A program made the translations under genes and the position numbers. A DNA stretch of 64,000 nt from Flexistipes sinusarabici DSM 4947 (lineage in GTDB: Bacteria > Chrysiogenota > Deferribacteres > Deferribacterales > Flexistipitaceae), in contig NC_015672.1 in NCBI RefSeq assembly GCF_000218625.1, forward strand, positions 1,835,451-1,899,450, written 5' to 3'. The number at the start of each line of letters is the position of its first letter. Position 1 is the stretch's first letter. Below, in pieces: positions 62,329-64,000 of this stretch. Under the pieces are notes generated by a model. It saw only the letters and a program-made list of their open reading frames with translations. It was not told where the DNA came from and ran no database searches.

Positions 62329-62358
62329 TTGACTATAAATTAATTGTCAAGTTATACT
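62329..62358 (+). promoter_or_regulatory. Promoter reading into the cassette (Pc-like)
   Basis: TTGACT (62329-62334), an 18-bp spacer and TATACT (62353-62358) point towards the cassette boundary at 62396. In integrons the Pc promoter lies between intI and attI in this direction, so this may drive the arsenite methyltransferase. Confidence 0.6.
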
Positions 62359-62390: not shown

Positions 62391-62402
62391 AACTTGTTAG
62401 GC
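62391..62402 (+). other. Cassette insertion point (attI-type core site)
   Basis: AACTTGTTAGGC: the GTTRRRY core with the recombination point between G62396 and T62397. The GTTAGGC core is the exact inverse of the GCCTAAC (R'') of the attC at the end of the same cassette, as expected when a circular cassette opens at this point. Confidence 0.7.
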
Positions 62403-62445
62403 CGTAAGTCATTACTTTATTTAAAAAATAGAAGGAGTGAGAAAA

Positions 62446-63288
62446 ATGAAAACTTACGAAATTAGACAAATTGTGAAGACCCGCTACGGCAAATTCGCTG
62501 AAACAGGCGGCAACAAGGAGTCTTGTTGACCGAGCAAGAGACAGCCCAGTTTGGGCTATGAAATTGACTCGGGGCTTTATGAACAGGCTGAGCTTTCCCT
62601 GGTACCAGAATTTGCTCTCAATATCTCACGAGGTTGTGGCAACCCTACGGGCTTTGCGAACCTTCAGCCAGGTGATGTGGTTGTAGATTTTGGTTGTGGC
62701 GGCGGGATAGACGTCATCCTGGCTGTTCACAAAGTCGGCCCGCAAGGGAGAGTAATCGGAATAGATGGCACGCCTCAAATGATCGAACGGGCCAAGCAGG
62801 CTGTGACTGAGGCAGGATTGCAAGACAGGAACATCGAATTCTGCAATGCCTACTTGGACGAGACGCGATTTTTAGACGGCTTCGCGGATGTCGTGACATC
62901 TAATTGTGTCATCAACCTATGCCCTGACAAGGATGCAGTATACAAGGAAGCCTTTCGTATCCTGAAACCTGGTGGGCGGATTGCCATCTCGGATATTGTT
63001 TTCATAGATAACATCAATCATGAGCTACGAGAGCGCTTCCAGTCAACTTGGGCAGGATGTTTGGGAGGAGCAATAGCAGAAGAAGACTACTGGCAAACGG
63101 TGAAAAAAGCGGGCTTTGCTGAGATTCAAATTGTGGCTCGTCATACTCTCAACCCCGAAGAATTGGAAGCAATGGCCTGTTGTCCTGGCAAAGAATTCAC
63201 TCCGCCGCCGAGCAAGGAAGATCGTGTTGCTGTGGAAGGGAAGGTGACTAGCGTCAAGTTCACGGCGATCAAGCCGCTTCTGAAGTGA
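62446..63288 (+). CDS. arsM: Arsenite methyltransferase (ArsM type), candidate selenoprotein
   Basis: The ATG at 62446 lies 6 nt after GAAGGAGTGA. It opens a 280-residue frame with one in-frame UGA at codon 28: KTRYGKFAETGG, NKESC-UGA-PSKRQPSLGYEID. ArsM proteins have a reactive Cys (often a Cys pair) at this place, so Sec beside Cys27 is plausible. The SAM domain follows (VVVDFGCGGGIDVILAV, about 85), then TSNCVINLCPDKDAVYKEAF with the As-binding Cys, and MACCPGKEF near the C-terminus. A SECIS-like hairpin starts right after the UGA. The gene is richer in G+C than its neighbours and is an integron cassette, indicating transfer. Alternatives are a nonsense-mutated pseudogene or a shorter product restarting downstream (e.g. 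TTG 62551), which would lack the N-terminal Cys. Confidence 0.78.
62530..62572 (+). promoter_or_regulatory. Bacterial SECIS-like hairpin
   Basis: Immediately after the UGA (62527-62529), CCGAG (62530-62534) pairs with CTCGG (62568-62572). Inside, AGCCCA (62543-62548) pairs perfectly with TGGGCT (62552-62557), leaving a GTT loop. The loop G (62549) is 20 nt after the UGA. Bacterial SECIS elements for SelB have a small loop with a G in the first positions, about 16-37 nt from the UGA, which fits. Confidence 0.65.
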
Positions 63289-63316
63289 AGAACAAATTGA
63301 AACCACACCAACAGCC

Positions 63317-63448
63317 GCCTAACAAGCGGCTTCACTGGACAGCAGGGCTCCACTTCTTTGGGTTGGTTTTTGAGCTTTTTCACAGTTCATTTGGTCTATC
63401 AAGTTAGGTGCCCTCTCATCCTGCTGCCAGTGAGCCGCAGCGTTATGC
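63317..63448 (+). other. Integron attC site (132 bp)
   Basis: R'' GCCTAAC (63317-63323) and R' GTTATGC (63442-63448) end an imperfect palindrome. The 5' arm GCGGCTTCACTGGACAGCAGG (split: GCGGCTTCACTGG, ACAGCAGG) matches the inverse of CCTGCTGCCAGTGAGCCGC except for two extra bases (one T, one A) on one arm. Such extrahelical bases are typical of attC. The recombination point is between G63442 and T63443. Length is close to the long attC sites of chromosomal integrons. Confidence 0.85.
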
Positions 63449-63465
63449 ACTGAAAAGGATGAGCC

Positions 63466-64000
63466 TTGAATCGAACGATAACAGATAACCTATTATTTAT
63501 GTTGGCTATTGTGGTCGGAGAGCTTGTGGCAATACATGGGAAAGCTGCTTCCTCATTCTTATTCGCTGGAGGTGCTTCTTTTCTCCGCGAAATACCGCGC
63601 CCAATTTGGGTATACCTGATACTTGCAATATCGAGCGTAATTTATATCCTGCTCCGGCTCACAAAATGGAATCCATCTACAAAGATGCTTGCCGGAGTAT
63701 TTGTTGGGTTTATTGCGACGATAGGGATGCAGCTGAATGATAATAGTTCGAGTCTTATTTTGTTTCTCCAGTTATTCGTATATGCAACCGCGACAGGCAT
63801 CTTATGGATAGAAAGCTATTTTCAACTTGATCTCGAAAAAGATTTCTGGAAGTTTATGTTTGAGAATGTTTTTAAATCCATAAGATATATCCTTGTTGTG
63901 TATGGCGCAATGGTTGTGGTATTAAGATACATTTCTTCATCAAATGGAGAAAAAACAATTGGATTTATAACAACTCTATCCTATCCAACGGTTATTGTTT
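63466..64000 (+). CDS. Integral membrane protein of a second cassette (partial)
   Basis: An open frame from TTG 63466 (after AAGGATGAG) or ATG 63499 to the window edge, at least 167 residues. Several hydrophobic helices are visible (NLLFMLAIVVGELVAIHG, IWVYLILAISSVIYILLRL, LAGVFVGFIATIGMQL, LILFLQLFVYATATGILW, YILVVYGAMVVVLRYI). It begins 18-24 bp after the attC recombination point, as cassette genes usually do. Family not recognised. Its own attC must lie beyond the window and should carry R'' GCATAAC. Confidence 0.7.
   Translation, partial: MNRTITDNLLFMLAIVVGELVAIHGKAASSFLFAGGASFLREIPRPIWVYLILAISSVIYILLRLTKWNPSTKMLAGVFVGFIATIGMQLNDNSSSLILFLQLFVYATATGILWIESYFQLDLEKDFWKFMFENVFKSIRYILVVYGAMVVVLRYISSSNGEKTIGFITTLSYPTVIV

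Follow-up and report, generated by a model that had tools for sequence, protein, structure and literature searches.

Selenoprotein forms of the arsenite methyltransferase ArsM are already known. They are entered in the tables of PMC9312934 and PMC13188914, with WP_011987699.1 (PRK11873/NF008823) as an example, and PMC9312934 credits Fomenko 2007 for them. The GOS survey (PMC2398784) also has a selenoprotein ArsM, and in one table of PMC5029168 the entry for selenoprotein arsenite methyltransferase is 39 and 41. The conserved cysteines of CmArsM are placed at residues 44, 72, 174 and 224 in PMC5552862.

We analysed a 64,000-nucleotide stretch of the genome of Flexistipes sinusarabici DSM 4947 (NC_015672.1, positions 1,835,451 to 1,899,450 of the forward strand; hereafter the window), in which an ArsM-type gene interrupted by a single UGA lies between sites of integron type. 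As judged from sequence, the UGA is very probably read as selenocysteine (Sec), giving an ArsM-type enzyme built with that residue. The whole reading, in which the gene encodes a Sec-containing arsenite methyltransferase and reached the genome as an integron gene cassette, has in our estimate a probability of about 0.9. The features of the locus are collected in Table 1.

Table 1. Features of the locus, in window coordinates except where a locus is named
Feature	Position	Strand	Basis
Promoter-like TTGACT-18-TATACT upstream of the cassette	62329..62358	+	Consensus match only
GTTAGGC, taken to be an R'-type core (attI or broken attC) bounding the cassette on the left	62396..62402	+	Sequence; consensus assumed
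Gene cassette, 1046 bp, between G^TT cut points	62397..63442	+	Derived from core sites
ArsM-type arsenite methyltransferase gene, predicted Sec at codon 28, 280 residues	62446..63288	+	Frame, profile match, relatives, 5evj alignment
In-frame UGA taken as selenocysteine (Sec28)	62527..62529	+	Same-codon UGA in 11 relatives, Cys in 3
Bacterial SECIS-like hairpin; conserved core 62543-62557 (6 bp, loop GUU)	62530..62572	+	Stem conservation, folding energy
Upper stem, 6 bp	62543-62548/62552-62557		
Loop GUU	62549-62551		
Lower stem, 5 bp	62530-62534/62568-62572		
attC: R'' GCCTAAC (63317-63323), arms, R' GTTATGC (63442-63448)	63317..63448	+	
ORF of the second cassette, 216 aa, membrane-like by eye	63466..64000, continuing at L045 1916-2566	+	

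The ArsM-type frame and its internal UGA

The frame of the gene is broken before its terminal TGA only by the TGA of codon 28, which directly follows Cys27; the translation reads MKTYEIRQIVKTRYGKFAETGGNKESC-U-PSKRQPSLGYEIDSG..., with the local motif C-U-P-S-K. The best NCBIfam model is NF008823 (arsenite methyltransferase), matched over residues 2-278 with 244.6 bits (E 1.3e-72). Since this score stays below the curated cut-off of 263 bits, we call the protein ArsM-type and not a certified member of NF008823. The closest solved structure is the arsenite methyltransferase 5evj (E 2e-24), presumably the Chlamydomonas enzyme, and in the alignment with it U28 falls on the N-terminal Cys, while C64, C154 and C205 likewise fall on Cys. 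By motif, U28, C64, C154 and C205 are thus the predicted equivalents of CmArsM Cys44, 72, 174 and 224, which accounts for all four cysteines of ArsM. The pairing of U28 with Cys44 is inferred through 5evj, because the CmArsM alignments begin at residue 55. The preliminary description had proposed an ArsM-type frame with one UGA, set behind a Cys at a position where ArsM enzymes have a functional Cys; the open frame and the profile match bear out the former, and the neighbourhood of Cys27 and the 5evj alignment the latter. A structure prediction from a 14-row alignment has a mean pLDDT of 73.8, with residues 24-44, including the Sec28 loop, below 50, and we therefore take no geometry for Sec28 from the model.

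One scan of a genome collection gave 23 loci, of which eight (L037-L044, 28-43% identity) were left out as other methyltransferases. In the 15 close relatives, codon 28 is TGA in ten and Cys in three, and the N-terminus is absent from the remaining two (L035 and L036, truncated short of the UGA column). L065, found in a sample of 395 genomes, is an additional UGA relative, the eleventh, and is not part of the protein alignment or the tree. Identity to the window protein is 66-84% for the UGA relatives and 60-65% for the Cys relatives (L032-L034), which are Nitrosomonadales with TGC at the UGA column. The expectation that homologues would have Cys at this column is therefore borne out by these three and by 5evj, and the locus has the pattern of a bacterial selenoprotein, with a UGA conserved in 11 relatives and Cys as the alternative in three. 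A further relative at 56% identity, L076, has no UGA and carries V at the C205 position. In the tree the deep forks are weak, and the cassette rows cluster with L024 and L025 at 88/91, a pattern compatible with a single origin of the cassette form as well as with several.

The hairpin and the Sec-decoding genes

A hairpin stands directly behind the UGA, from which the G of its loop is separated by 19 nt. It folds at -19.1 kcal/mol (z -3.42), a value equalled by one of 200 shuffles. Across 12 sequences, 94.4% of the 72 cells of the upper stem are paired, compared with at most 52.8% when the stem is slid along the alignment, and two of its pairs are altered on both sides; in L029, for instance, a C-G pair has become A-U by silent substitutions in two codons (CCC to CCA, TCG to TCT). 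Of 500 shuffled controls of the upper stem, 8 did at least as well in percentage paired and covariation score, 35 had at least as many pairs altered on both sides, and 290 at least as many further pair types. The innermost pair is broken in 4 of the 12 sequences. The share of paired cells in the lower stem is 56.7%, so we regard this stem as a peculiarity of the window sequence and have dropped it as a general feature of the family. It is the upper stem that identifies the element as a SECIS-type hairpin. Of the two-stem hairpin proposed earlier, the 6-bp upper stem and the loop starting with G stand and are conserved; the 5-bp lower stem is present in the window and is not conserved. Nor do the closest relatives combine a sense codon with a missing hairpin, as both the UGA and the upper hairpin are kept in them. 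A scan of 62400-63500 with Rfam found no match at the hairpin up to E 10, and two weak matches elsewhere.

The host genome (2,526,590 bases in one contig) holds the sel genes that the preliminary description had asked for: selA (558.5 bits), selB (310.5) and selD (335.3) all exceed their cut-offs, selA adjoins selB, and selC is present as a tRNA-Sec with anticodon TCA. A second RF01852 match above the cut-off is a tRNA-Leu according to ARAGORN. The host selD (C1:2185607-2186524, L018) carries an in-frame TGA of its own, and for that reason is itself likely to be a selenoprotein. In a comparison of 13 metagenome assemblies, ten with the UGA form and three with the Cys form, and with the genome of L065 left out, selB exceeds the cut-off in eight of the ten UGA genomes; the other two have pieces of selB at contig ends (207.8 and 83.8 bits). 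None of the three Cys genomes has selB above the cut-off, and the best matches there are EF-Tu-like in appearance.

In the mechanism that we propose, SelB and Sec-tRNA would decode UGA28 as Sec, aided by the hairpin directly behind it. Where ArsM has its N-terminal Cys (Cys44 of CmArsM) the enzyme would have Sec28, accompanied by Cys64, Cys154 and Cys205. Sec28 may act as a fast redox partner in a thiol relay that restores As(III) or arsenic intermediates, and the enzyme itself, between methylations.

Were the gene instead a pseudogene, a nonsense mutation or a sequencing error in a Cys codon would have truncated it at codon 28, and the Cys forms L032-L034 do have TGC here, one base from TGA. 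Against this stand the same-codon UGA in 11 relatives, the co-occurrence of the UGA form with selB, and purifying selection downstream of the UGA, where dN/dS of the window gene is 0.14 against L022, 0.11 against L023 and 0.12 against L024, and 0.11-0.20 across all six pairs compared. The true start might also lie downstream of the UGA, for example at TTG 62551, from which a 245-aa ORF runs, and the protein would then lack the N-terminal Cys. However, the 27 codons ahead of the UGA are conserved as protein (RYGKFAE, for instance), dN/dS in 26 of these codons is 0.05 to 0.33 in four of the six pairs, the other two being saturated, and a Shine-Dalgarno-like AGGAG precedes ATG 62446. Given the conservation of the UGA, its co-occurrence with selB, the protein conservation of the N-terminus and dN/dS, we have rejected both accounts, each of which we consider highly improbable, and retain UGA28 as a probable Sec codon.

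A probable integron-type cassette around the gene

The left-hand GTTAGGC, which we take to be an R'-type core, lies 43 bases upstream of the start codon, and a 132-base attC stands behind the stop codon, folding at -48.8 kcal/mol (z -3.45; equalled by 1 of 300 shuffles). The ends of the cassette follow from a cut at G^TT, a rule that we assume here. The ORF of the second cassette, for which no Pfam family was found, runs at its 3' end into a second attC (L045 2524 onwards, just beyond the window end; z -3.97, again equalled by 1 of 300 shuffles). Both cassettes thus consist of a single ORF and an attC with the order R''-L''-L'-R'. In the host genome no integrase of integron type scores above the cut-off, so the locus has the look of a two-cassette array that lacks an integrase. 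The preliminary description had not noted this setting. As for the promoter-like match upstream, five such sites occur in the region compared with 2.2 in shuffles.

The gene is part of a 13.4-kb stretch absent from a genome of the same genus that is 88% complete (G015): between the matching stretches with radC and a Mrp-type gene there are 196 bases there as against 13.4 kb here. The rest of the stretch (L045 2400-13843) is filled by a transposase, a type III restriction-modification pair, an HSDR_N-like ORF and an AbiEi-like gene. In another genome, G016, the contig ends before the insertion site can be compared, and its last 350 bases (L067) show GTTAG-type motifs behind radC, perhaps from a separate insertion at this site. 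Plasmid sequences, searched with the gene (at E 1e-40) and with the attC region, gave no match, and neither did IMG/VR when searched with the gene.

Integron signs are also found around two of the UGA relatives. The genome holding L022 (G050, Desulfobacterales CG23) has two integron integrases above the cut-off, and the ArsM gene of L022 is flanked there by an attI-type core and an attC. On the integrase contig L069 of that genome, the sequence upstream of an integrase gene reads CCTGATAATCAATG-GTT-CCCGAGG, and the related region of L022 (82.6% over 69 bases) reads CCTGATAATCAATG-GTT-AGACGG, followed by the ArsM gene and then by an attC that ends GGGGCG-TT-CCCGAGG; the last 54 bases of the L022 contig are identical to L069. 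Insertion of an ArsM cassette at attI, before the same next cassette, would give this pattern. The L022 contig, from a metagenome, breaks off 53 bases past the junction, and the assembly of repeats could also yield the shared 54-base end; L022 and L069 may be two integrons or two variants of one. Ahead of the L023 gene, at a distance of 22 bases, stands an attC preceded by a 126-aa ORF, and downstream of the gene there is, by eye, only a shortened attC-like remnant. The sites of L022 (z -2.46, for a slice with 23 extra bases) and L023 (z -2.63) fold more weakly than those of the window locus.

The selenoprotein could be real and the repeats that flank it be chance inverted repeats with no relation to integrons. 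Such an account would fit the lack of an intI above the cut-off in the host genome and the absence of any attC- or attI-type site from nine of the 11 UGA relatives (L024-L031 and L065, in about 300 bases of flank, less at contig ends). It would also fit a structure scan that misses the second attC, whose R'' is non-canonical, and yields two weaker look-alikes in the stretches scanned. Chance does not readily place two attC-like sites in the same orientation, one behind each ORF, or produce the G^TT junctions seen between L022 and L069. Furthermore, an AAC-13-GGAC spacing is common to four sites, the two attC of the window locus and the sites of L022 and L023, and is absent from every other flank of the 14 relatives scanned (those two included); the pattern YAACAAGCGN8GGAC, built from these same sites, is expected 0.01 times in the window. 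We therefore judge chance repeats to be unlikely, if less remote than the two alternatives for the UGA, and favour acquisition as a cassette. Acquisition would have come about by integrase-driven insertion, the integrase acting from elsewhere or having since been lost. Because the hairpin is inside the reading frame it travels with the gene, and a full-length enzyme would be made from the cassette only in hosts with sel genes.

Among 50 genomes of the window's phylum the gene was found in the window genome only; six others pass E 1e-40 with loci of 38-42% identity and no internal stop. At E 1e-70 there are matches in the phylum of G051 (3 of 395 genomes), the phylum of G052 (1 of 400) and the class of G050 (3 of 389), in samples that overlap; five of the seven matches were already known, and one new match is L076. 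The host also has a Cys-type ArsM of 253 aa, which exceeds the NF008823 cut-off (307.1 bits) and lies behind an ArsR-family gene; the two genes are at L062 1154-2250, with selD some 4 kb away, and L062 is the locus that was examined among L056-L062 (38-42% identity). The arsenosugar radical SAM protein ArsS, scoring above its cut-off, is encoded close to the Cys-type relative L034 of Gallionella (L034 4046-5224), an indication that the family has to do with arsenic. Ten flanking ORFs of relatives, examined by Pfam and two of them also by NCBIfam, showed no other arsenic genes.

Comparison with known systems

Integron cassettes with selenium-related cargo have a precedent in cassette 75 of Vibrio sp. 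DAT722, whose product is selenocysteine lyase-like. That product is annotated as acting on selenocysteine, and is not called a selenoprotein in the available part of PMC1382264. A search of open-access full text, with subscription papers outside its scope, found no report of a selenoprotein gene on an integron cassette (compare the accessible portions of PMC1382264 and PMC2709254), and none of arsM on an integron gene cassette or of a Flexistipes integron or selenoprotein.

To judge by this locus, genes that depend on a modified genetic code may pass from one bacterium to another already packaged as cassettes. We think it likely that integrons carry selenoprotein genes in this form, as small mobile units with UGA and hairpin inside the ORF that spread across phyla and whose success is set by the Sec decoding of the host. 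Two fields meet in a recoded gene carried by an integron cassette, and both the horizontal movement of expanded-code genes and the possible filtering of cassette pools by the decoding ability of hosts become testable. The locus also places a predicted Sec-type arsenic-methylating enzyme on a mobile element whose host possesses a Cys-type arsM as well, preceded by an arsR gene.

In its architecture the locus resembles other integron gene cassettes, with one ORF and one attC per cassette, head to tail, and no integrase gene near, an arrangement known as CALIN. It differs from usual cassettes in that the cargo requires recoding of UGA, and therefore a Sec-decoding host. Three other families of selenoproteins, NF041536 (ArsM/DUF2284), NF041537 (ArsM/AhpD) and NF047649 (methyltransferase/UXPK-star), share a related methyltransferase domain; the window protein scores far below their cut-offs, is matched over the methyltransferase part alone, and has no second domain that we could find. 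With the known selenoprotein ArsM of NF008823 it shares its nature as an ArsM-type methyltransferase selenoprotein, and it differs from it in scoring below the cut-off of that model, in its integron-type cassette location and in its motif, C-U-P-S-K as against the UxxG listed for the known protein in a review. Selenoprotein ArsM is an already known kind, and what is new is the vehicle, an apparent integron cassette.
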